From Pseudorhodobacter sp. E13 (lineage in GTDB: Bacteria > Pseudomonadota > Alphaproteobacteria > Rhodobacterales > Rhodobacteraceae), in assembly GCF_003991405.1 (NCBI RefSeq), contig NZ_RPEN01000159.1, forward strand, positions 496,001 to 560,000: a stretch of 64,000 nt of DNA, read 5' to 3'. Every line of letters begins with the position of its first letter. Position 1 is the stretch's first letter. Below the pieces are notes generated by a model. That model searched no databases, was not told the DNA's origin, and saw nothing but the letters and a program-made list of their open reading frames with translations. Made by a program: the position numbers and the translations under genes. This document shows positions 1,276 through 33,991 of the stretch, piece by piece.

Positions 1276-3180
1276 ATGTTGTTCTTGAGAACACTGCTCT
1301 TTAAATTGGTTGACCGGCTGACCCGGGCCCAGAAAAAGGCCTTGCTGGCCTCTGTCGATGCCTTGCTTGCGCCTTGCGCCTTCCTGATCTCTACCGGCAT
1401 CCTTTACAATGCCTTTCCCAGTATCGAGTTCATTCAACGGCATTTTCTGATCATCCTGCTGCTGACAGGTTTGGCAGGGGCGCTGTCTGTTCTGCTGAAA
1501 ATGCCGAATATCAAGCTGAATTCCTATGAGGCCCGCGGCATCTTGCGCACTGGCTTGATGGCCCTTCTGGTCACGCTGGCCTTTGCCGCGCTGGTCAATC
1601 AGTTGCCGCTGTATTTTTCGCGGCTTGGGATCATCTTGTTTGGCATGGTGTTTTTCCTGCTCGCGGTCAGCGCGCGGTTCAGCATGCTGCATATGTTGCT
1701 TTGGATCTTGCGGGCGGGCCGTCCGCACAAGCGGGTCTTGATCTATGGTGCCGGGCACACGGGGATGCAACTGGTCGCGGCCCTGCGCGAACATGCCACG
1801 ATTTTGCCTGTCGCCTTTGTTGACGACAATCCGTCGCTGCAATCCATGACCTCGGGCGGGCTGCGGATTTACAGCCCCGACCGCATCCTGGAGCTGTCGA
1901 AACGGCTGGAGGTGGATCGCATCTTGTTGGCCATGCCATCGGTGCCCGGCCCGAAACTGTCGCAGATCGCGCGCAGGCTTCAGGATCTGGGGCTGGTGGT
2001 GATGTCGGTGCCATCCTTCGCGCAGATCGTTGGGGTGGAACGGCTTGTCGACACGCTGACCCCTGTTGACGCCAATAGCTTTCTGGGCCGCAGTCAGGTT
2101 GAAAACCGGATGCCCATGGGCAGCGAGGCCTATCAGGGCCGCACGGTTCTGGTTTCGGGGGCTGGTGGTTCTGTAGGTTCTGCCTTGTGCCGGCAGCTTC
2201 TGGCCAGCAAACCCGCCTGCATCGTCTTGTTCGAGGTCAGCGAGATCAACCTTTACAACATCGAGCGCAAGCTGCTGGAACTGGCCAAGGGCACGCCGAC
2301 CCGGATCGTCGCTGTTCTGGGCTCTGTAACCGATAGCCGGATGGCACGCACGGTGATGGCCGAACACAAGGTAGAAATTGTGTTCCACGCCGCCGCATAC
2401 AAACATGTGCCGCTGGTCGAGGCCAATCCCTTGGCCGGGCTTGCCAATAACGTATTGGGCACGCGCACCTTAGGCGATGCGGCAAATGACGCGGGGGTGC
2501 GCAAGTTTGTTCTGATTTCCACCGACAAGGCGGTGCGCCCGACCAATGTGATGGGGGCCTCCAAGCGCCTTGCGGAACTGGTTGTGCAGGATCTTGCCAA
2601 GCGGTCGCAAGGCACCGTCTTTTCCATGGTGCGCTTTGGCAATGTGCTGGGGTCATCGGGTTCCGTGATCCCGCTGTTTCGGGAACAGATCGCCAAGGGC
2701 GGCCCTGTCACCCTGACGCATGAGGATGTCACGCGCTATTTCATGACCATTGCAGAGGCAGCGCAACTGGTGTTGCTGGCCGGGTCGTTTTCTGATGGCA
2801 GCGGCGGCGGCGATGTGTTCGTGCTGGATATGGGCGAACCCGTGAAAATCCGTGACCTTGCCCAGCAGATGATCGAAGCGGCAGGCCTGCGGGTGAAAAG
2901 CGACGACAGCCCTGACGGCGATATTGAAATCAAGGTGACGGGCCTGCGCCCCGGCGAAAAGCTGCATGAGGAATTGCTGATCGGCGAAGGGCTGTTGACG
3001 ACGCCGCATTCCAAAATCCTGCGCGCGCAGGAACGCAGCCTGACCGAATTGGAAATGGCAACCGCCCTGCGCGCCTTGCGGACGGCTGTCGCGACCGGCT
3101 CTGCCGAAGATGCGCATCGGGTCATCAATACCTATGTCGAAGGCTTCCGCCCGCCCGAACAGGTGGCATCGGCGCAATAG
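1276..3180 (+). CDS. Membrane NDP-sugar 4,6-dehydratase/epimerase (CapD/WbpM/PglF-like)
   Basis: 634 residues. The first ~130 residues are hydrophobic (four membrane segments); a first Rossmann region starts near residue 155 with GAGHTGMQ; the catalytic SDR domain follows from about residue 290 with VLVSGAGGSVGSALCR, AAAYKHVPLVE and STDKAVRPTNVMGASKR. This architecture is that of UDP-HexNAc C4,C6-dehydratases/C5-epimerases (WbpM, PglF, CapD) that make deoxy-amino sugars for capsule, O-antigen or glycoprotein glycans. The length is typical of the family. It lies 85 bp upstream of the yjb-type genes, so it probably supplies a modified sugar precursor for the same exopolysaccharide. The exact stereochemistry of the product cannot be read from sequence. 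Confidence 0.88.
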   Translation: MLFLRTLLFKLVDRLTRAQKKALLASVDALLAPCAFLISTGILYNAFPSIEFIQRHFLIILLLTGLAGALSVLLKMPNIKLNSYEARGILRTGLMALLVTLAFAALVNQLPLYFSRLGIILFGMVFFLLAVSARFSMLHMLLWILRAGRPHKRVLIYGAGHTGMQLVAALREHATILPVAFVDDNPSLQSMTSGGLRIYSPDRILELSKRLEVDRILLAMPSVPGPKLSQIARRLQDLGLVVMSVPSFAQIVGVERLVDTLTPVDANSFLGRSQVENRMPMGSEAYQGRTVLVSGAGGSVGSALCRQLLASKPACIVLFEVSEINLYNIERKLLELAKGTPTRIVAVLGSVTDSRMARTVMAEHKVEIVFHAAAYKHVPLVEANPLAGLANNVLGTRTLGDAANDAGVRKFVLISTDKAVRPTNVMGASKRLAELVVQDLAKRSQGTVFSMVRFGNVLGSSGSVIPLFREQIAKGGPVTLTHEDVTRYFMTIAEAAQLVLLAGSFSDGSGGGDVFVLDMGEPVKIRDLAQQMIEAAGLRVKSDDSPDGDIEIKVTGLRPGEKLHEELLIGEGLLTTPHSKILRAQERSLTELEMATALRALRTAVATGSAEDAHRVINTYVEGFRPPEQVASAQ

Positions 3181-3265
3181 TCTGCGGGAAAACCTTGAAA
3201 AGCGCCTTGCGCGATTGTGATACCGCGCAAGCCTGACTATGGTTGCCAAAACCCGTGAGGCCCAG

Positions 3266-7484: not shown

Positions 7485-10400
7485 TCCTTTTCAAAGAAAA
7501 TCCCCAGACCAGCCTCGCCATCTGCCGCGACCGAACCACGCACCGTCACGTTCTTTTTCAGATCAAGGTTCAGGTTGATCTGGCTGCGACCATCCTGATC
7601 CACCTCCACCTCGGAATAGACCCGTTTGGACAGGTATTTCCCGGCTTTCAATGAGATGTTTCCTTCGGAATCCGTTGAAAAATCAAGATCATCCAAGCCA
7701 AAGCCACTGCGCAATTTGCTGACGATACCTTCCCCGCCCTTGCCTGCCAAAGTCGCCACCGCCGAGGCAAGCTGTGCCGCTTGCAAGGGCGAAATCTGGT
7801 CCAGCCCCTGCCCGAACAGCAGTTGCGCCAAGACCTCCTCTTGCGGCAGGTCCGGCACGGATTGGAAGGTGATCTCGGGCTCATCCGCGCGGCCTTCGAT
7901 CACGACCGAGGTGGTGACATCATCGCCTTCGTTGATGGCCACAATGTTGATATAAGGGATCAGATCACCTTGCAGCACCACGCTGGCTGTATCCAGATCA
8001 AGCCGCTTGCCCAGAATATCCAACCGCCCCCGGATCAGATCAAACCCACCGCTGGGGATGACGTTATCCGTGGTGCCGCGCAATTGCACGCTGCCGCCCA
8101 GTTCCGCATCAATGCCACGCCCCCGGATGAAAATCCGCGACGGTGCGCTGATGGTCAGATCAAGCCCAAAGGGGCGCGCGGCGGCCCCCTGCGACGCCCC
8201 GGTGCCCAAGTCGATCAGCCCTGCCTTGTAGCGCGTGGCCTTGACGGCAGCGGGTTCATTCTTGTGTTTCAGACCGGGAAGCGAGCCGAGGGCCGCAAAG
8301 CCCGTCGTTGGCACCTGAATCTCTGCTTCGCGGATACTGATCGCGCCCGAGATGCTGGCCCCCCCTTGCAACGGCCCTTGCACCACGACATTGCCACCCA
8401 GATTGACCTCATAGAGATCGGGGTCTTTCAGGATGCCATCGGTCAGGCCCACCCGCAGATCGGCCACATTCGGCGCGGCAAGCCCGATGCTGCCATCAAC
8501 CGTCATGCGCCCCCCTGTGCTGGGAGAGGCCGCGACCGATAGTTGCACCGCATTGCCACCCAGATTTGCGGTTGCTTGCAGGTCTTGCAGACCAAAGGGC
8601 AGGTTTGGCGCCGACAAACGGCCTTGCGACAATGATGCGCTGCCCGCAAGTGACGACAAAGCCAGCGGCCCGTTCAACCGCAGGTCAAAGGCGGTTTGCC
8701 CCGATACCGAACGCGGGCTGATGAACGCATTGGCCAGTTCAGCCCGTGCTGTGCCGCGAATGGCCAGATTGGCCGAATTGAAACTGGGGGCGATGCGGCC
8801 CGAAACGCTTGCATCAATGCCACCCGGTCCGGTGCCTGCCAGATCCAGCACCACCCCGTTGCCATCTTCGACCGCCGAACCCGCTACAGTCAGCCGCCCC
8901 GGAAAATCCGGGGCCAGCAGCGCAAGATTGGCCAGCGTTGCCTCTAGCTGAAGGCGGCGCTGATCGTCGGTGACGCTGCCCCTTGCGGCCAGCGTGACCT
9001 GCGGGTTTGACAGGGTCAGGGTTTCAATCTCGATCCGGCGGCCTTTGAAATTGGCGGCCCCGGCAAGACGCGATTGCCCGGCCAGCACGCGGTCTGCCTC
9101 GGCCACGCCAAGGGCAAGGCCGGTCCCAAGGCCCGACACCTCTACCCGCCCGGCATCAACCGTGCCTTTGAACGTGGCCTCGGCCGAAAGCGCGCCGCGA
9201 TAGCCCGGCCCCAAAGGCGCGATGCTTGGCAAGGCAACATCCAGCGCAAGGTCAGACCCTGCGGGCGCGTAAAAGCCTGTCACCTCACCCGCGATCTGCT
9301 GGTTGTTGATCGTGGCTTTGGTGATATCGAACCGCCCATCGTTCAGCCCGACATCCACCGACAGCCGGCTTTGCCCTGCGGTCAAGGCATCCACCTGTTT
9401 TTGCCCGATGCGCAACCCATCGGCCAAACCATCCAAGGTGATCCGCCCCTGCGCCGGGGTGCCGGAAAAGCTGGCATCGGCATTCAGGCTGCCACTATAT
9501 TGCGCGCCCAGCGCCGACAGATCGGCAAATTGCAGCTTGCCTTTCAGGTCACTGCCATCGCTGGCCAGTTTGCCCGATGCGTTGACCCGCAAATCCTGCG
9601 CGGTCACATTCAGGCTGCGCAGAAAGGTGCCCTTGGTCGACCGCCCCGCCGCAAAGTCGATTTCAGAGCCGCCTTGAAGCAGGTTATCAACCTCTGCGAT
9701 GCCGACCCGGATATCGGTGCCGCTGACCTTGCCAACCGCGTCAAACTCCCCGCCAAGGGGCACGGCTTGCCCGCTGATGCGAAAGGCCGCGGCGCCGCCA
9801 ATCTCGCGCCCTGCCAGATCGGACAGGCGGGACAGATCGTCATAGCGGGCATCGACGCTGCCTTTCAGCCGGAAGCCGCTTTCCAGATCGCCAAACCGCA
9901 CCGAAGCAACGATGTCATAGCCTTCTTCGCGCAGGGTCAGGCGGCCAATGCGAAAGCCAAGCCCGCCTTGCTGCCAGTCAAACACCATGCGGCCATCCAG
10001 CGAACTGCCCAAAGCGCGGGCCAGCGCCGGGTCGGCCAAGGCCACCTCTTGCGCATCAAAGACCAGTGTGCCGCCGACAATCGGGCCGCCGCTGCCTGCG
10101 CGGCGGTTGATCCGGCCAGACCCGGAAATCCGCGCTTGCCCCAAGGCCACATCATCGCGCTGCAACCCGGTCAGGTTTACCGCCCCCGACCAGCCATCGC
10201 CTTGCGCGGCATCAAAAGACAACCGCAGATCGGCAGAGGAGACACGGGTTTCCACCTCTCCGGCGATGGGCAACAGCACGGGCGCGCCATCGGCAAAGCC
10301 CAGCCTGCCCACCAGCGACAGCTTTTGCGGCAGGCCATCGGCGGCAATCATGGCCGACCCGTCCAGCCGAATGGCGCGGGTGTCCAGCGTCAGCGCGGTC

Positions 10401-11317
10401 AGGTCCAGCCGCCCCAGATTGCTGCGCGCGCCTTCCACTTCCAGCCGGACCTCGGTGCCAAAGAAGGCCGCATATTCGGGCAGAAACAGCGGGGCCACAT
10501 CGCCATTGATCGCAGCACGAAAGCCTTGGCCGCCATCGTCTTGCCCGGTCAGCGTCAGACTGCCTTGCAGCCGTTCTTCGCCATCGGTGCGCAAATCCAG
10601 ATCCGCCGTAAAATCGTCCAGCGGCCCTGCGCCCGCGATTCTCAGCGCGACAGACGGCGTCCCCGGCAGGCCGAGCAGCGTGGCGCCAATGCCGCCTTCG
10701 GCCTCGGCCAGATCCAGATCAACCGACAGTTCGCGCGTTGCATTGGCATAGGCCACTTTCAGCGACAGGCTGGCATCCGGCCCCGCATCGGTGCGTAGCA
10801 AGGTCAGCTCTGCGTTGCCCTGCCCACCATCCAGCACGGCAGCGGCCTCCAGCGAGCCTTCGAACGCTTGCCCCAGGATTTCCGCGCCCAGCGCAATCCG
10901 CTTGGCCGACAGCTTTTCAATCGTCACCGAAACGGGCAATTCCGGCAGGCTAAAACCGGACGCCTCGGGGGCCACAACGGCATTGGGGTCGGGCACGGGC
11001 TTGCGCGCGACGATCACCTCGTCGGCGACAAGTTCATTCACGCTGACCACCCCGCGCAGCAGCGAGGCGCGGCTCCAATCCAGCACAACGCCGTTCAACG
11101 TCAGCCAGACACCTTCGGTATCGGCGATGGTCAGGCTTTCGATCTGTGCTTGCGATGAAAACGCACCGCTAAACCCCGTCACCGTCACCTGCCGCCCGGC
11201 AGAGGACAGGTTATCCTCCAGAAAGGCGGTCAGGGTGTCACGGTCATCCGACTGCGCAAAGGCCAGAACCGGCAGCAGCAGAAAAACGAAAAGGGTGCGC
11301 CAAAAATTCTGCATCAA
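7478..11317 (-). CDS. tamB: Translocation and assembly module protein TamB
   Basis: 1279 residues, signal peptide at the N-terminus (MMQNFWRTLFVFLLLPVLAFAQ), then a very long repetitive beta-strand sequence and a C-terminal TamB (DUF490) domain covering roughly the last 330 residues (PFGLDLTISAPSRIFIRGRG, LQGDLIPYINI). TamB is an inner-membrane-anchored, periplasm-spanning beta-groove protein of the AsmA-like/VPS13-like class that works with TamA in outer-membrane protein assembly and probably phospholipid transport. Its start overlaps the tamA stop by 4 bp (ATGA), so the pair is coupled. Length is normal for the family. Confidence 0.93.
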   Translation of the reverse strand: MMQNFWRTLFVFLLLPVLAFAQSDDRDTLTAFLEDNLSSAGRQVTVTGFSGAFSSQAQIESLTIADTEGVWLTLNGVVLDWSRASLLRGVVSVNELVADEVIVARKPVPDPNAVVAPEASGFSLPELPVSVTIEKLSAKRIALGAEILGQAFEGSLEAAAVLDGGQGNAELTLLRTDAGPDASLSLKVAYANATRELSVDLDLAEAEGGIGATLLGLPGTPSVALRIAGAGPLDDFTADLDLRTDGEERLQGSLTLTGQDDGGQGFRAAINGDVAPLFLPEYAAFFGTEVRLEVEGARSNLGRLDLTALTLDTRAIRLDGSAMIAADGLPQKLSLVGRLGFADGAPVLLPIAGEVETRVSSADLRLSFDAAQGDGWSGAVNLTGLQRDDVALGQARISGSGRINRRAGSGGPIVGGTLVFDAQEVALADPALARALGSSLDGRMVFDWQQGGLGFRIGRLTLREEGYDIVASVRFGDLESGFRLKGSVDARYDDLSRLSDLAGREIGGAAAFRISGQAVPLGGEFDAVGKVSGTDIRVGIAEVDNLLQGGSEIDFAAGRSTKGTFLRSLNVTAQDLRVNASGKLASDGSDLKGKLQFADLSALGAQYSGSLNADASFSGTPAQGRITLDGLADGLRIGQKQVDALTAGQSRLSVDVGLNDGRFDITKATINNQQIAGEVTGFYAPAGSDLALDVALPSIAPLGPGYRGALSAEATFKGTVDAGRVEVSGLGTGLALGVAEADRVLAGQSRLAGAANFKGRRIEIETLTLSNPQVTLAARGSVTDDQRRLQLEATLANLALLAPDFPGRLTVAGSAVEDGNGVVLDLAGTGPGGIDASVSGRIAPSFNSANLAIRGTARAELANAFISPRSVSGQTAFDLRLNGPLALSSLAGSASLSQGRLSAPNLPFGLQDLQATANLGGNAVQLSVAASPSTGGRMTVDGSIGLAAPNVADLRVGLTDGILKDPDLYEVNLGGNVVVQGPLQGGASISGAISIREAEIQVPTTGFAALGSLPGLKHKNEPAAVKATRYKAGLIDLGTGASQGAAARPFGLDLTISAPSRIFIRGRGIDAELGGSVQLRGTTDNVIPSGGFDLIRGRLDILGKRLDLDTASVVLQGDLIPYINIVAINEGDDVTTSVVIEGRADEPEITFQSVPDLPQEEVLAQLLFGQGLDQISPLQAAQLASAVATLAGKGGEGIVSKLRSGFGLDDLDFSTDSEGNISLKAGKYLSKRVYSEVEVDQDGRSQINLNLDLKKNVTVRGSVAADGEAGLGIFFEKDY

Positions 11318-13125
11318 AATGCCTGTCCAATACCAACGTAAACCTGTGGGCTGCCACTGCCGCCCGAGATCGGCGCGCCGATATCAAGGCGGATCGGGCC
11401 GAACCCGGTGGCGTAGCGAATACCAAAGCCCGCGCCTGCATGGCTGGCCGTTTGCCCGCCGAACAAACCATCGCTGGCGATCTGCCCGAAATCGGCAAAG
11501 CCGACGATGCCGATGGTCGGCGTCACCTTGGCCCGCAACTCGATCGAGGCACCAAGGAACCCGGTGCCGCCGGTGCTGTCGCCCGTGGTCGGATCGGTAA
11601 AGCTGAGCGATTGATAGCTGTGCCCCCGCACCGTGCCGCCACCGCCCGAGTAATACAGATACTCCGGCGGCAAGCTGGTGGCATCGCCGCCAAAGCTGCC
11701 TTTGGCCTGAAACCGTCCGGCAATGGTAAAGCGGTCATCCTCGCCAAAGCCGCGATAGGCGCGGGCATCCAGTTCCAGTTTTGTGCCGGAATCGGTAGAG
11801 CCAAAGCCAAGGAAAGGCGCGATTTCGGCGTCGATGTAAAAGCCCTGCGTGGCGTCAGTTTTGGAATTCCGCTTGTCCCAGTTCACGCCCACCGGCAGCG
11901 ACAGGATACGGAAATCGACGCTGCCACCGGTGGTATAATCCACATTATACTGCGCGTATTCCAACCCGACCCGCGCCGTCATCTCGCGCGAGACATAATG
12001 GGTAAAGCCCAGACCGAATTCCGCGAAATCCTGCACATAATCGTCTTCATCCTCATGCCCGAAGCGCAGAAAGGACGTGGCGGTGGTATCGGCGCTAAGG
12101 GTCGCGGGACGATCCAGCGTGAAGCCAAGTGCATAATCGACACCGCTGTTCTGCGCGCCGAGTTGGGCAATCTCGCCTTCGACCTTGAAGCGTTCACCGC
12201 CGCCAAACAGGTTGCGATGCAGCCAATAGCCGCTGACCTTCGCACCTTCAGAGCTGGCAACCTCTAGCCCGAAGCTGAAGCGACGGGGTTTTTCCTCGAC
12301 CAGTTTGGCGGTGATGCCCAACAAGTCGGGCGCAGTGATCTGCTCATCCTCGACCAAGGCGACAGAGCGGAAAATCCCGGTGCGGCGCAAACGCTCTTCG
12401 GCGTCCTCCAGTTCGGCGGGGCTGAATTGTTCGCCTTCGGGCAGGCCAGCGATCTTGATGATGCGGCGCAGTTCCATACGGTCATGCCCGGTGACAGACA
12501 GCGGGCCAAAGCGCAGGCGCGGCCCGGCAGAAACAGTCAGTGCCGCCGACAAGGTGGCAGCGCGGTGGTCGGCCGTGACGTCTTGCCCCGTCACATCGGC
12601 CTTGGCATGGCCCACCTTGCGCCACCCCGTCACAGCCGCCGAGGCCGCGCCCGAGATGACATCGCTTTCCGCAGCAGCCCCAACGCGGTAGCCTTCGGGC
12701 AGCTCTGTGCCCGCAGCCAGCGGGGCGATGGCGGCTTTGGAAAAGGTGAACACCGGGCCGGGATCAACCGTTACCGTAATCACGCCCACGCTTTGCGGCG
12801 CGTCCAGCGGCGGAATGGAGGCAGCCTCGCGCCCGTCGATCCGAATGTTCACAACCCCGGAATAGCGGCCCGTGGCATATAGCGCGCCGACGATCCGGCC
12901 ATATTCGGCCCGCGCGGCAGCGAACAGGTCTTGCGGGTCGGTGGTGCCTTCGGCTTGGGTGGCCAGCAGAACAGAGGCCGCACGCACAGCGGCGATCACA
13001 TCTTCATCCCCGCCAGCAACATTGAAATCAATGCGTTCGAGCGCTTTGGCAGGCAGCACATTCGATATCTCGACACCGATCAGCAGCGCCGCGACACCAA
13101 CAGCTTTCAAGCCTTTTTTCAGCAT
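11314..13125 (-). CDS. tamA: Outer-membrane assembly protein TamA (Omp85 family)
   Basis: 603 residues: signal peptide, N-terminal POTRA repeats (to about residue 270; for example the RLRFGPLSVTGHDRM segment beginning a POTRA) and a C-terminal 16-stranded barrel with the L6 loop motif GTVRGHSYQSL and a terminal phenylalanine (IGQAF). Omp85 members of this size beside tamB are TamA. Encoded immediately upstream of tamB with a 4-bp overlap. The 146 bp upstream, shared with the divergent peroxidase gene, must hold its promoter. Confidence 0.93.
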   Translation of the reverse strand: MLKKGLKAVGVAALLIGVEISNVLPAKALERIDFNVAGGDEDVIAAVRAASVLLATQAEGTTDPQDLFAAARAEYGRIVGALYATGRYSGVVNIRIDGREAASIPPLDAPQSVGVITVTVDPGPVFTFSKAAIAPLAAGTELPEGYRVGAAAESDVISGAASAAVTGWRKVGHAKADVTGQDVTADHRAATLSAALTVSAGPRLRFGPLSVTGHDRMELRRIIKIAGLPEGEQFSPAELEDAEERLRRTGIFRSVALVEDEQITAPDLLGITAKLVEEKPRRFSFGLEVASSEGAKVSGYWLHRNLFGGGERFKVEGEIAQLGAQNSGVDYALGFTLDRPATLSADTTATSFLRFGHEDEDDYVQDFAEFGLGFTHYVSREMTARVGLEYAQYNVDYTTGGSVDFRILSLPVGVNWDKRNSKTDATQGFYIDAEIAPFLGFGSTDSGTKLELDARAYRGFGEDDRFTIAGRFQAKGSFGGDATSLPPEYLYYSGGGGTVRGHSYQSLSFTDPTTGDSTGGTGFLGASIELRAKVTPTIGIVGFADFGQIASDGLFGGQTASHAGAGFGIRYATGFGPIRLDIGAPISGGSGSPQVYVGIGQAF

Positions 13126-20225: not shown

Positions 20226-20999
20226 ATGAGCAACCAAGGCACACCCCTTGTTGAAATGCGCGACATCTCCATCTCTTTCGGGGGGATCAAGGCGGTCGAT
20301 CATGTGACCGTTGATCTGTATCCCGGCGAGGTTGTGGGCTTGCTGGGCCATAACGGGGCAGGCAAATCAACGCTGATCAAATGCCTGTCGGGGGCCTATC
20401 AGGCCGATGCGGGCGAAATCTGGATCAATGGCAAGAAGGTCGAGATCACCAACCCCCGCGACGCCCGCGCCCAGAACATCGAAACCATTTACCAGACGCT
20501 GGCGCTGGCCGATAACCTTGATGCGGCCTCTAACCTGTTTTTGGGGCGCGAATTGGTCAGCCCCTTGGGTTTTGTCGATGAAAGCAAGATGGAGGCGGAA
20601 ACCCGCAAGATCATGCATCGGCTGAACCCGAATTTCAAAAAGTTCAGCGTGCCGGTGTCGGCCCTGTCGGGCGGGCAACGCCAATCGGTTGCCATTGCGC
20701 GGGCGGTCTATTTCAACGCCAAGATCCTGATCATGGATGAACCCACCGCCGCCCTTGGCCCGCATGAAACGCAGATGGTGGCCGAGTTGATCGAGGAGTT
20801 GAAAAAGCAGGGGCTTGGCATTTTCCTGATCGAGCATGACATTCACAACGTGATGAAATTGTGCGACCGCGCTGCCGTCATGAAAAACGGGCAATTGGTG
20901 GGCACGGTGAAGGTGGATGAGGTCACGGATGAGGACATCCTGAGCATGATCATCCTCGGCAAAAAGCCGGGTGCCGCCGACTCTGAAGCTGCTGTCTGA
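20226..20999 (+). CDS. xylG: Xylose ABC transporter ATP-binding protein (single nucleotide-binding domain)
   Basis: 257 residues from the ATG at 20226, chosen over 20220 because the AGGGA sequence is 8 bases from it but only 2 from the earlier ATG. Walker [10 protein letters not shown], signature LSGGQRQ, Walker [11 protein letters not shown] and switch His in IEHD are all present. Unlike E. coli XylG (about 513 residues, two domains) this has one domain and must work as a homodimer, as in FrcA-type systems. It powers uptake through XylH. The stop overlaps the xylulokinase start (TGATG). Confidence 0.9.
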
Positions 21000-29644: not shown

Positions 29645-31219
29645 ATGGCGACGGGTGCCGAACTCACCTATCAGACCAATGCATCGGCATTGGCCATGGC
29701 AAACACAATCTTCGGGTCTGGCGTCACGGTTAACGGTGCCAGCTATTCCGGGCCAAGCGCATCTTCGGCGATCTATTCCAACGGCCAGTTGGCGGCGGGG
29801 GTCGTGCCCTCGACCACGGGCGTTATTCTGTCCACGGGCAACGTGACCAGCTTTACCCAAAGCAGCGGTGATCCGAACCGATCCACCGGCACGTCGACCA
29901 ACACCTCGGGCACTGATAACAACAGCCTGTTCAATGCCATCGCCGGCACGCGCACCTATGATGCCGTCTGGCTGGACGTTGATTTCACCCCAACCGCCAG
30001 CCTGATGACGATGAGCTTTGTGTTCACGTCCGAGGAATACCCGGAATATATCAACAGTCAGTTCAACGATGTCGTCGGCGTTTGGGTGAACGGCACCCAT
30101 GTTCCGATCACGGTGGGCAATGGTGTGACCTCGGTCAACAACATCAACGGCAACACGCAGCAAAACCTGTTCGTCAACAACACAAATGATGCGTTCAACA
30201 CCGAGATGGACGGCTTTACCGTCACGCTGACGCTGACGATGCCGGTCAATCCGGGGGTGGTGAACTCTATCCGGATCGGCGTGGCCGATGCGACCGACAC
30301 CCAATATGACAGTAACCTGCTGATCGCGGCAGACTCGGTGCAGACGGCGCTGATTGCGGTGGATGATACGGTCAACCTGAACCCGAACGGAACCAAAACC
30401 GTATCTGTTCTGGCAAATGATATCAGTCAGAATGGCGCGACGCTGGTCATTACACATATCAACGATGTGCCGGTTACTGCTGGCTCTACCGTGACGCTGC
30501 CGTCGGGGCAACAGATCACGCTGAACGCCAATGGCACCTTCACGCTGGTCGGTGACGGGCAGATCGAAACCAAGACCTTCACCTATACGATTCAGGATGG
30601 GCTGGGGAATACGGATGTTGGCTTTGTCACCATCAACTCCATCCCATGCTTTGTTGCGGGCACAGCCATTCTGACCCCGGACGGCGAAGTGCCGGTAGAA
30701 AGCCTGCAAGCGGGTGATCTGGTCATCACCCATGATGATGGCCCGCAGCCGCTGCGCTGGATCGGGCAGCGCCGCGTTGCCGCCGAAGGAAGCTTTGCCC
30801 CCATCCACATTCGCGCCAATACTTTTGGCAGCCACCGCGACCTGCTCGTCTCGCCGCTGCACCGCATCCTGATCCGCGACAGTCTGGCCGAATTGCTGTT
30901 TGGCGAGGCAGAGGTGCTTGTCGCCGCCAAGGACCTTGTGAACGACCGTTCCGTCCTGTCGGTGCCGGGGGGAGAGGTGGATTATGTGCACCTGCTGTTT
31001 GATCGGCATCAGGTGGTCTTTTCCGAAGGTCTGGCGACCGAAAGCTTCTTGCCGGGGCCGCAAACCACCAAAAGTTTTGAGGCCGAGATCGTGGCCGAAA
31101 TCTGTGCGATCTTCCCCGAGATTGACCCCGAAACCGGCCATGGTTACAGCCCCGCCGCCCGCCGCACCCTGCGCGGCTATGAGGCGCGGCTGCTGACCGC
31201 CGCCAACCGGGCGGCCTGA
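29645..31219 (+). CDS. Choice-of-anchor L / Hint-domain protein (paralogue 1)
   Basis: 524 residues from an ATG preceded by GGGGG. No Sec signal. Residues 1-235 form a choice-of-anchor L domain ([59 protein letters not shown]). Residues 240-332 look like a cadherin/Ig-like repeat (VDDTVNLN...VLANDIS...[13 protein letters not shown]). From Cys335 comes a Hint domain: [40 protein letters not shown], then VSPLHRIL (His406) and FDRHQVVF (His455). Hint domains catalyse N-S acyl shift at the first Cys. The canonical terminal His-Asn of inteins is not seen, so self-cleavage or ester transfer rather than splicing is likelier. The next Hint gene starts 6 bp downstream. Confidence 0.85.
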
Positions 31220-31225
31220 GCGCGC

Positions 31226-32239
31226 ATGGCACAATGGCTCGCCCTTTCCGACAGAGCGACCCCGCTGGAAGCAGCGGTGGGCCTGCCTTTGTTGGCAAAA
31301 GCGACCCTTGTGCTGGAGTTTGAATTGCCGCTGGAAGGGGCTGCAATTCTGATCGACTACAAGACCGATACCGACTGGCCCCGCGCCTTGTCGGTGTTTG
31401 TCGATGAGCAAGCGGGCGTCGTGATCCTGCACCGTCAGGCGGACCGCTTGCTGCGCCATGTCTTGCCGGGGCCGCTTGGGCTGTCTAGCAACGGCGTTGC
31501 CCGCATTTCCTTTGGCTGGAACGGGCCTGCGAAAAGCTGGACGCTGTCGCTGGAACAGCCCGGCCAAGGCGAGGGCCGCCGAACCCGCGGGCGCGATTGC
31601 ATGCCGATGCTGATGGAAGACATCCTGAGCATTTGTGACGGCACCCACGAAACCCGCCGCCACCGATCCGTGCTGTGGTTTGGTGTCATGGATGGGGCGA
31701 CCCTGCCGGACCGCGCGCCGTGGGTCGGCCTGCAAACCCCGATTGATACGCCTTATGGCCCCTGCCCCGCAGGCAAGCTGCGCCCCGGTGACATGCTGCT
31801 GACCGAAGATGGTGACTATGCTGTCCTTTTGTCACGCACGCTGATGGATTTGCCCAGCCGGGGGTCGTTCAGCCCAGTGGTTCTGCGCGCGCCCTATTTC
31901 GGGGCGGAGTCGGATATCCTTGTCTCGGCCGACCAGCTTGTCGCAATTTCCGGCGATGAGGTGGAATATCTGTTCGGCGAAGATACTGTTCTGACCGAGG
32001 CGCGAAACCTGACCGATGGGCGCGCGGCCTTGATGGACCTGCGCCGCGCCCTGACCTCTTGTGTGGCGCTGGATATTGGCGTGCCCCGGTTGATTCAGGC
32101 CGAGGATTGCCGCTTGCTGACGCATACCAACGGGCGCAGCACCGCCCAGACCTTCGCCCCCCATACGGTCATTCAGGGCTATGAAACCATTCCCCTGCTG
32201 GACATGCTGGGCCGCACCGGCGGGCGGTCAGTGGCCTAA
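31226..32239 (+). CDS. Hint-related protein without the catalytic cysteine
   Basis: 337 residues starting 6 bp after paralogue 1, so the two are in one transcript. Residues 1-155 are a beta-rich N-terminal domain (LPLEGAAILIDYKTD, GVARISFGWNG) not recognised. From about 166 a Hint-like region follows: TPIDTPYG, KLRPGDMLLTEDGD, SFSPVVLRAPYFGAESDILVSADQLVAI. Aligned with paralogue 1, the catalytic Cys position (PCFVAGT) reads PWVGLQT, Trp166 here, and the SPLHRIL histidine reads SADQLVAI. Both key residues are lost, so autoprocessing is not expected. It may be a binding or partner version of the fold. Many similar proteins are annotated as Hint-domain-containing. Confidence 0.75.
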   Translation: MAQWLALSDRATPLEAAVGLPLLAKATLVLEFELPLEGAAILIDYKTDTDWPRALSVFVDEQAGVVILHRQADRLLRHVLPGPLGLSSNGVARISFGWNGPAKSWTLSLEQPGQGEGRRTRGRDCMPMLMEDILSICDGTHETRRHRSVLWFGVMDGATLPDRAPWVGLQTPIDTPYGPCPAGKLRPGDMLLTEDGDYAVLLSRTLMDLPSRGSFSPVVLRAPYFGAESDILVSADQLVAISGDEVEYLFGEDTVLTEARNLTDGRAALMDLRRALTSCVALDIGVPRLIQAEDCRLLTHTNGRSTAQTFAPHTVIQGYETIPLLDMLGRTGGRSVA

Positions 32240-32246
32240 CGGGTTT

Positions 32247-32331
32247 AGCGTTTGATGAGTCAGCTTTATCGCGAAACGCTCTAACGCCCTTTGGCGAGGG
32301 GGGAATGACTGGCCGTATTCCCCTTAAATTT
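32247..32331 (+). terminator. Hairpins between the second and third Hint genes
   Basis: First, AGCGTTT (32247-32253) pairs with AAACGCT (32274-32280). Second, GGGGAAT (32300-32306) pairs with ATTCCCC (32317-32323) and is followed by TTAAATTT, resembling a weak intrinsic terminator. Together they suggest that the third gene has its own promoter in the 177-bp gap. Confidence 0.5.
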
Positions 32332-32416
32332 ATGCAACAGCGCATCTATCTAAAGTTCCTGTTCCAATGTCGGGCAGGTTTTGCCTGACAGAACGCCAAC
32401 ATCGGGGGGTGTTGAT

Positions 32417-33991
32417 ATGGTTGCTGCTGCTGAACTTGCGATTGATACGTCCGCCTCTGCCTTGGACATGGCGAATGCCATGTTTGGCGCGGGTGTGACG
32501 ATCCTGTCGGCCAATTATTCCGGTGCCGCTGCGGCCTCGGGTATCTATTCCGGCGGGCTTGCCACCGCGCCGGGGGTGGTGCCTTCGGATAGCGGGGTCA
32601 TCTTGTCCACCGGGCGGGCGACGGATTTCACCAATAGCACGGGTCAGGCCAATCAGGCCGCGAACACCTCGGGCAATCTGGGCCGTGCGGGCGATGCGCA
32701 GCTCAGCGCGATTGCAGGTGTGAACACCTTTGACGCTGCCATTTTCACGGCAAGCTTTGTGCCCGATGGCAATGTGCTGACCATGCAGATCACCTTTTCC
32801 TCGGAGGAGTATCTGGAATATGTGAATTCAGGCTTCAACGATGCGACCGCGATCTGGGTCAATGGGGTGCAGGCCGAACTGACGGTCGGCACCGGCGACA
32901 TCACGATCAACAACATCAATACCACGTCGAATTCCAACCTGTTTGTGAACAACCCCGCAGCCACCTCGCCCTTCAACACCGAGATGGACGGCTTCACCGT
33001 CACGCTGACGCTGAAAGCGCCGGTGATCGCTGGTGCGACGAATACCATCAAGATTGCCATCGCCGATGGTGGCGACCGCATCTATGACAGCAACCTGTTG
33101 ATCGCGGGCGACAGTATTCAGGTGGCACTGATCGCCGGGGATGATGAATTTGACATCGGCAAGAATGATCCTGTCACCTATGACCTTCTGGCGAATGACA
33201 CCTCCTCGACCGGGTCGACGCTGACGATCACCCAGATCAACGGGCAGCCGGTGGTTGCGGGCAGCGTCGTGACGCTGGCCACGGGAGAGCAGATCACCGT
33301 CAACGGCGATGGCACCATCACCGTGCTGTCGGATGGCAGCTTTGACAGCAACACCTTCACCTATACCGTCGCGGATGCGGACGGGAATACCGATGTCGCC
33401 TTTGTCACCGTCAACACCGTGCCATGCTTTACGCGTAGCACCCGTATCCGCACCGCGCGCGGCGATATCGCGGTCGAGGATCTGGCGGTGGGCGACCGCG
33501 TGATCACCCGCGACCATGGGTTGCAACCGATCCGCTGGATTGGCGCGCGCAAGGTGGCAGGCATCGGCCCCTTTGCCCCGGTGGTGTTCGAGGCCGGAAG
33601 CCTTGGCGCGCATGACCGGCTGGTGCTGTCACAGCAGCATTGCGTATTGATGCGCGGGGCGTCGGCCCAGATGACCTGCGGCGCTGCGGAAGTGCTGGTC
33701 CGCGCCAAGCATCTGATCAACGGCCACAGCATCCGGCTGGAAACGTCAGGCGCGCCGGTGGAGTATTTCCATATCCTCTGCGACCGGCATGAAATCCTGT
33801 GGTCCAACGGGTTGGAAACCGAAAGCTTCCACCCCGGCACGCAAGTGCTGAACGGGATGGAGGCCGAAAAGCGGGCCGAGGTGTTGGCGCTGTTCCCCGA
33901 ACTGGCACAAGGAGATTGCGCCCTGCCGACCGCCCGGCCCGAGGTCAAAGCCTATGAAGCGCAGCTTTTGGGGCAGAATATCGCCGCATAA
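32417..33991 (+). CDS. Choice-of-anchor L / Hint-domain protein (paralogue 2)
   Basis: 524 residues, the same length and domain order as the protein at 29645, from an ATG preceded by GGGGGG. Choice-of-anchor L domain residues 1-235 ([61 protein letters not shown]), cadherin-like repeat about 240-333, Hint domain from Cys337 (VPCFTRSTRIRTARGDIAVE, LAVGDRVITRDHGLQPIRWIG, LSQQHCVLM). The paralogues are clearly related but diverged, so the duplication is not recent. No Sec signal; type I-like export is plausible, but no exporter genes are nearby. The end CDRHEILWSNGLETESFHPG mirrors the first paralogue. Confidence 0.85.
   Translation: MVAAAELAIDTSASALDMANAMFGAGVTILSANYSGAAAASGIYSGGLATAPGVVPSDSGVILSTGRATDFTNSTGQANQAANTSGNLGRAGDAQLSAIAGVNTFDAAIFTASFVPDGNVLTMQITFSSEEYLEYVNSGFNDATAIWVNGVQAELTVGTGDITINNINTTSNSNLFVNNPAATSPFNTEMDGFTVTLTLKAPVIAGATNTIKIAIADGGDRIYDSNLLIAGDSIQVALIAGDDEFDIGKNDPVTYDLLANDTSSTGSTLTITQINGQPVVAGSVVTLATGEQITVNGDGTITVLSDGSFDSNTFTYTVADADGNTDVAFVTVNTVPCFTRSTRIRTARGDIAVEDLAVGDRVITRDHGLQPIRWIGARKVAGIGPFAPVVFEAGSLGAHDRLVLSQQHCVLMRGASAQMTCGAAEVLVRAKHLINGHSIRLETSGAPVEYFHILCDRHEILWSNGLETESFHPGTQVLNGMEAEKRAEVLALFPELAQGDCALPTARPEVKAYEAQLLGQNIAA

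Follow-up and report, generated by a model that had tools for sequence, protein, structure and literature searches.

A 64,000-nucleotide window of Pseudorhodobacter sp. E13 DNA (positions 496,001 to 560,000 of contig NZ_RPEN01000159.1) contains three consecutive forward-strand genes, designated A, B and C here, that each encode a protein with a Hint_2 domain (PF13403). In A and C the Hint domain stands behind a choice-of-anchor L (anchor-L) domain and an Ig-like domain, and B joins a lectin-like domain to a Hint domain without the nucleophilic cysteine. The reading proposed here, tentative and given somewhat less than an even chance, is that A and C are Sec-independent, adhesin-like proteins in which the Hint domain and the tail behind it serve export and self-processing, with B as a companion that carries a dead Hint domain. 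The evidence for it lies in the contrast between A and B at the active site, in the recurrence of the A-B pair, and in the wide use of the same C-terminal module by other proteins of the genome and of the family Rhodobacteraceae.

The three genes and the predicted Hint fold

The features of the locus, in window coordinates, are as follows.
29645 to 31219, + strand: gene A, 524 residues; choice-of-anchor L, Big_9, Hint_2 and tail, signal peptide not evident
29696 to 30340, + strand: choice-of-anchor L domain of A, residues 18-232 (NF038133, E 1.8e-48)
30350 to 30637, + strand: Big_9 Ig-like domain of A, residues 236-331 (Pfam, E 1.8e-10)
30644 to 31057, + strand: Hint_2 of A, residues 334-471 (Pfam, E 7.4e-53); Cys335 codon at 30647-30649
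Within 30644 to 31057, + strand: key residues of that domain, S403 to H406, H449, H455 and E466-S467 (by alignment)
31058 to 31216, + strand: conserved C-terminal tail of A, residues 472-524; low predicted local distance difference test score (pLDDT), R506 and E513 nearly invariant
31226 to 32239, + strand: gene B, 337 residues; lectin-like domain and Cys-less Hint_2
31226 to 31690, + strand: N-terminal beta-sandwich of B, about residues 1-155 (boundary judged on the predicted structure), CBM40/laminin-G-like
31721 to 31723, + strand: Trp166 of B, roughly at the position of Cys335 of A
31736 to 32050, + strand: degenerate Hint_2 of B, residues 171-275 (Pfam, E 4.5e-15)
32417 to 33991, + strand: gene C, 524 residues, paralogue of A
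32468 to 33115, + strand: choice-of-anchor L domain of C, residues 18-233 (NF038133, E 9e-53)
33131 to 33415, + strand: Big_9 Ig-like domain of C, residues 239-333 (Pfam, E 3.5e-10)
33422 to 33838, + strand: Hint_2 of C, residues 336-474 (Pfam, E 5.3e-50); Cys337 codon at 33425-33427
33839 to 33988, + strand: C-terminal tail of C, residues 475-524, following Hint_2

A and C are 51% identical across 521 columns, and six bases separate the stop codon of A from the start of B. All three proteins exceed the curated PF13403 cut-off of 28.4 bits (A 179.3, B 56.7, C 170.1), the match in B being partial, and A and C score 164.8 and 178.9 bits against NF038133 (cut-off 27), a model not listed for B in the NCBIfam scan. 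The motif histidine lies in S-P-L-H (403-406) alongside Cys335 in A and in S-Q-Q-H alongside Cys337 in C. An earlier note made from the letters alone had described two outer proteins of 524 residues with the order anchor-L, cadherin-like repeat, Hint and with Cys335 or Cys337, and a Cys-less relative between them; Pfam and NCBIfam confirm the former, and B, a Hint_2 match without that cysteine, is the latter. The repeat domain that it called cadherin-like is present, but Big_9 describes it better, since Cadherin_4 scores below cut-off in C and does not appear among the matches listed for A.

In Foldseek, the AlphaFold2 model of A (mean pLDDT 80) matches 6tmm (TMt 0.59) and 6mwy (TMt 0.65), both intein or bacterial intein-like (BIL) structures, and a sequence profile of A weakly matches the solved BIL domain 2lwy (E 0.0023). 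The predicted model of B (pLDDT 93) matches the intein 6riy (TMt 0.69), and its N-terminal part is structurally similar to 6er2, 6er4 and laminin LG domains, 6er4 also being matched in a separate search at E 0.0095. A C-terminal part that was no Hint fold would have spoken against the earlier proposal; what the predictions return for A and B is a likeness to inteins and BIL domains. Because of these models and the E values of 7.4e-53 and 5.3e-50, the Hint assignment is not due to chance. The tail of A is mostly disordered in the model (pLDDT below 50), whereas the last helices of B are predicted confidently; such disorder, if real, would suit an export signal or a partner-binding region.

Active-site conservation and the A-B pair

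Related loci were compared as the best 80 of at least 571, ranked by similarity to A, so the presence of Hint in all 80 is a biased observation. Within these loci, Cys335 of A is kept in 79, with Ser in the remaining one, and it is preceded by Pro334 in 79. The SPxH motif is present in A of every locus, with S403, P404, H406 and also H449 at 80/80 each and H455 at 79/80. Behind the motif, E466 (80/80) and S467 (79/80) occupy the place of the inteins' His-Asn, as judged by motif comparison, and the tail residues R506 and E513 are found in 79 and 78 loci. Mean column identity of A is 60% over 70 rows. The A/C model was built from 68 of 89 references plus A and C, and the B model from 66 of 76 references plus B; in one A alignment 23 of 26 rows begin at an internal Met taken as the start, which affects the N-termini alone.

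The B counts refer to 77 rows, which include the window's own B and a truncated C-type open reading frame (ORF) beginning at 10335 in locus L081. Residues of the fold are kept nearly throughout (Gly347 and Gly357 in 77, Pro386 in 76), whereas the catalytic Cys is lost in 75 rows and kept in two B proteins (L090 and L119), and His406 is lost in 67 and kept in 10, L119 among them. At later positions, His455 is found in 60 rows, E466 in 64 and S467 in 67. The L081 ORF (10335-11075) is a truncated C-type Hint by its position in the tree, has no anchor-L domain and has a changed active site. Outside an A-B pair, Cys-less Hint_2 relatives also occur in L026 (G000:C154:178139-178522) and L234, in short open frames of 216 and 180 codons.

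Because B keeps the fold without Cys and His406, the fold appears to be independent of them, and the constancy of Cys and His in A therefore points to chemistry. Judged from sequence, B would be a folded protein that has mostly lost its catalytic residues and A a protein strongly constrained to retain them, and the Cys, SPxH and conserved His of A fit thioester chemistry. The same data bear on a second explanation, in which Hint and tail form a folded export or sorting module alone and no cleavage takes place. That B retains fold and place without Cys and His, that L026 in this genome likewise has no Cys, and that proline stands at -1 in A are all in keeping with it, but A keeps Cys in 79, His406 in 80 and H455 in 79 of the 80 loci even though the fold of B needs neither Cys nor His406; a module without cleavage is considered doubtful.

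In the comparison of gene order suggested in the earlier note the order recurs, with B just 3' of A on the same strand in 75 of the 80 loci. The B frame overlaps the end of A in 51 of these, lies within 130 bases of it in 74, and stands at a distance of 511 bases in L103. In at least 10 of the 80 loci the pair is followed by a second anchor-L/Hint gene (C), a lower bound because the flanks are short. When the flanking genes are named by reading their sequences, dapE-like, RNase R-like and GNAT-like genes recur on the upstream side and a dapD-like gene recurs on the downstream side. A tree of 114 rows, sampling one A in three and one B in two, places 40 B rows in a single clade on a long stem (support 100/100), and the 41st row labelled B is the truncated C of L081. 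A and C group together with support of 99/91, A by itself being weakly supported (94/31).

A C-terminal module across the genome and family

The genome holds 15 Hint_2 copies, 12 of them outside the trio, and two anchor-L domains, each in a Hint-ended protein. Between 45 and 81 residues follow the Pfam match in 14 of the 15 copies, and 10 follow it in the shortest copy, which has no Cys. A Pfam scan covered ten of the 12 Hint proteins outside the trio: four contain RTX repeats (one of these together with PA14, another together with Big_9 and cadherin-like repeats), a fifth has a nidogen-like domain, a sixth a lamin-tail domain, and the remaining four show nothing else above cut-off. A larger set of 39 Hint ORFs was taken from this genome and two others, representing only part of what those two hold, and in all 39 the match to a Hint-plus-tail profile ends 69 residues or fewer from the C-terminus. 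At E 0.01, a profile trained on A/C-type tails recognises 23 of the 39 tails but none of 570 shuffled sequences and none of the ends of 782 unrelated ORFs; when A-, B- and C-type rows are left out of the count, it finds 18 of 31 Hint-protein tails from the three genomes and 0 of 1352 controls. Owing to these matches, the tail appears common well beyond anchor-L proteins, yet not recognisable in every Hint protein. None of this, neither the 15 Hint_2-ended proteins, nor the tail behind Hint, nor the apparent standing of B as a conserved dead companion of A, was part of the earlier note.

Hint_2 was found in 53 of 61 sampled genomes of the family, with up to 21 matches per genome, and the available text of one study reports that PF13403 is over-represented in those Rhodobacteraceae whose response in bloom experiments is fast (PMC12487129). 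G319 and G450, two alphaproteobacteria with small genomes that share one other family, have six Hint_2 matches each; in L174, L175, L186, L187, L192 and L193 from these genomes, 171-214 other residues lie behind the profile match and there is no short tail.

Choice-of-anchor L proteins elsewhere bear other C-terminal signals. The anchor-L domain is present in 127 of 295 family genomes and in 8 of 289 genomes drawn from the whole class; three of these 8, the genome studied here included, belong to the same family. In 29 family loci drawn by anchor-L score alone, one per genome, a less biased sample that still consists of high scorers, the protein ends in Hint in 28, including L054 as well as L045, L056 and L057 (seen whole as L139-L141); the remaining one, L058 (the same as L149), has RTX-like motifs and no Hint. 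A second sample consists of 20 regions selected because they were long, weak or odd, and it shares five genes with the 29. Anchor-L with Hint is present in 13 of these regions, counting L157, where the gene is broken across frames, and L156, where Hint is shortened. In L143 the anchor-L frame extends past the fetched end and the Hint_2 match lies in the same frame. Hint is not present in six of the 20 (L146-L150 and L153, L148 being cut at the N-terminal side). RTX-like motifs occur in six long Hint-bearing anchor-L proteins, always before Hint. By sequence, anchor-L proteins of the family thus look to have one of two ends, Hint with its tail or an apparently ordinary RTX terminus, and the view in the earlier note that Hint takes the place of a sorting signal is supported. 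Three anchor-L/Hint genes look broken by a shift of frame or an in-frame stop, namely L157 (2330-3559 and 1954-2436, - strand), L156 (2384-3835) and L054, which has a stop inside the anchor-L part. Long RTX anchor-L/Hint genes in L139, L141 and L145 lie in tandem behind another RTX-motif Hint ORF on the same strand.

In a crude hydrophobicity test, none of 90 A/C N-termini passes, whereas 33 of 45 neighbours of Sec type and 6 of 123 cytosolic proteins do, and the signal-peptide threshold is reached by no Hint protein among the genome's 15. The links to RTX proteins and the apparent lack of a Sec-type N-terminus point to type I secretion. In substrates of type I secretion the export signal occupies the position that the Hint module has here, and the tail is a candidate for such a signal. 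Like such substrates, several Hint proteins of the genome and the long anchor-L proteins have RTX repeats and no evident signal peptide; A and C differ in having no RTX-like motif and in ending in Hint and tail. PrtD- and HlyD-type genes exist in the genome, the HlyD genes lying away from the trio. In L247, from another genome (G210:C2), the distance between a Hint_2 gene and a pair of type I exporter genes is about 6 kb (1951-3240 and 9164-12195, both - strand).

Proposed processing, rival readings and known systems

Taken together, it is plausible that A and C are adhesin-like proteins that leave the cell without a Sec signal, most likely through a type I secretion system, with Hint_2 and the tail of about 50 residues as a C-terminal module for export and self-processing. 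Once exported, Hint would turn the bond before Cys335 or Cys337 into a thioester (N-S acyl shift), as Hedgehog and type B BIL domains do, and attack by water or an acceptor would then separate the anchor-L/Big_9 part from Hint and tail. By analogy, the Cys at the Hint start, SPxH, His455 and the missing C-terminal Asn would fit cleavage before Cys, and because that Asn is missing no splicing is expected. B may be co-transcribed with A and present its lectin-like domain; since it keeps the Hint fold and has lost the catalytic residues, it is probably exported like A but left uncleaved.

Several observations weigh against this proposal. Proline at -1 slows intein cleavage, and its presence in A of 79 of the 80 loci therefore suggests that cleavage may be slow, triggered or absent. 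Of the 31 other Hint proteins, 13 escape the tail profile, among them 6 of the 12 from this genome; its fit to B is weak (5 of 75 at E 0.01, 50 of 75 at E 1), and one of 75 B proteins passes the signal-peptide threshold. With the genome's PrtD and HlyD proteins as queries, no exporter genes were found beside the trio or in the 80 loci, in a search where a control region gave a positive signal and whose sole exception was a general ABC likeness in the window (20304-20939, 28% identity). PrtD exceeds its cut-off in 6 of the 10 class genomes with Hint_2 above cut-off, compared with 85 of 289 overall, a comparison confounded by kinship, and co-occurrence of Hint_2 with type I secretion was for this reason set aside as evidence. 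Finally, B is absent from five of the 80 loci over 4.6-6.0 kb of downstream sequence, where searches with B proteins gave A's own Hint alone among the four best matches listed per locus.

An alternative possibility, close to the earlier note's own, is a Hedgehog-like anchoring reaction in which the anchor-L part passes from the Hint thioester to an acceptor on the surface (a lipid, a sugar or an amine). The Cys/His set of a thioester-forming Hint and the missing C-terminal Asn agree with this, as do the different ends of the alternative anchor-L proteins and the conserved tail, which recalls the sterol-recognition region behind Hint in Hedgehog (layout as given in the available text of PMC7765530). 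However, no acceptor is known, and a tail that is disordered in the model and common to RTX-repeat proteins suits an export signal at least equally; transfer to an acceptor is regarded as unlikely. A wider version, in which Rhodobacterales would carry out Hedgehog-like processing at scale, with type I-exported proteins whose C-terminal Hint and recognition tail transfer the N-terminal part through a thioester to a surface acceptor, and the dead-Hint lectin B guiding, anchoring or limiting the reaction, is quite unlikely.

Splicing or C-terminal release by an intein or type A BIL domain shares the Hint fold, and the accessible part of one report describes an exported RTX protein of Ruegeria pomeroyi with an internal intein-like domain that ends in His-Asn, peptides of this region being undetected in the exoproteome (PMC2953401). 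The E466-S467 pair in place of His-Asn, the merely short tail behind Hint and the fact that intein_Nterm and intein_Cterm models are not listed at E up to 1 (HMMER filters drop most weak matches) make this very improbable, and it was set aside for want of His-Asn. Hint-bearing toxins exist, and a small gene does lie behind A, but the release of a C-terminal effector with B as an immunity-like neighbour is also most improbable and was set aside, as the roughly 50 residues behind Hint are conserved rather than variable and B has its own Hint and a lectin-like domain.

The proposal of a self-processing export module draws on systems already described, and the statement in the earlier note that no described system uses Hint in this way was too strong: in the available text of PMC7765530 and PMC4031507, Hint domains of Hedgehog and BIL proteins cleave at, or transfer, the N-terminal part. 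All three proteins belong to PF13403, whose model is limited to the domain and takes in neither the tail nor the link to RTX proteins nor the dead companion. With type B BIL domains, A shares intein-like motifs without a C-terminal His-Asn, as outlined in the same two sources, having E-S instead. BIL domains are described there from variable regions of non-conserved proteins, whereas A is conserved, has recurring neighbours and carries Hint near its C-terminus. The layout of Hedgehog/Hog is similar in its C-terminal Hint, Cys nucleophile, TxxH-like motif, missing C-terminal Asn and short region behind, but PF01079 reaches only 13.1 bits in C (E 0.073; cut-off 29.7) and is not listed for A or B, no sterol site is known, and proline replaces the Gly found at -1 in Hedgehog. 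A bacterial Hint group is likewise distinct from inteins, Hog and BIL, but, compared by description only in the available text, some members have signal peptides and conserved upstream cysteines (Buerglin 2008; PMC2362128). NCBIfam choice_anch_L matches A and C, which differ in their Hint_2 terminus.

In the accessible portions of the open-access literature searched, no statement on the function of the Hint_2 module and no experiments on an A-type Hint were found, and the words intein, hedgehog and hint do not occur in PMC3933643, PMC5489592 or PMC5839243. The family includes the abundant marine Roseobacter group, according to the available text of PMC3933643. If the module does cut itself, it would be a further means by which exported adhesins are released or fixed, and the active and dead Hint copies would form a natural pair that provides a ready-made control.

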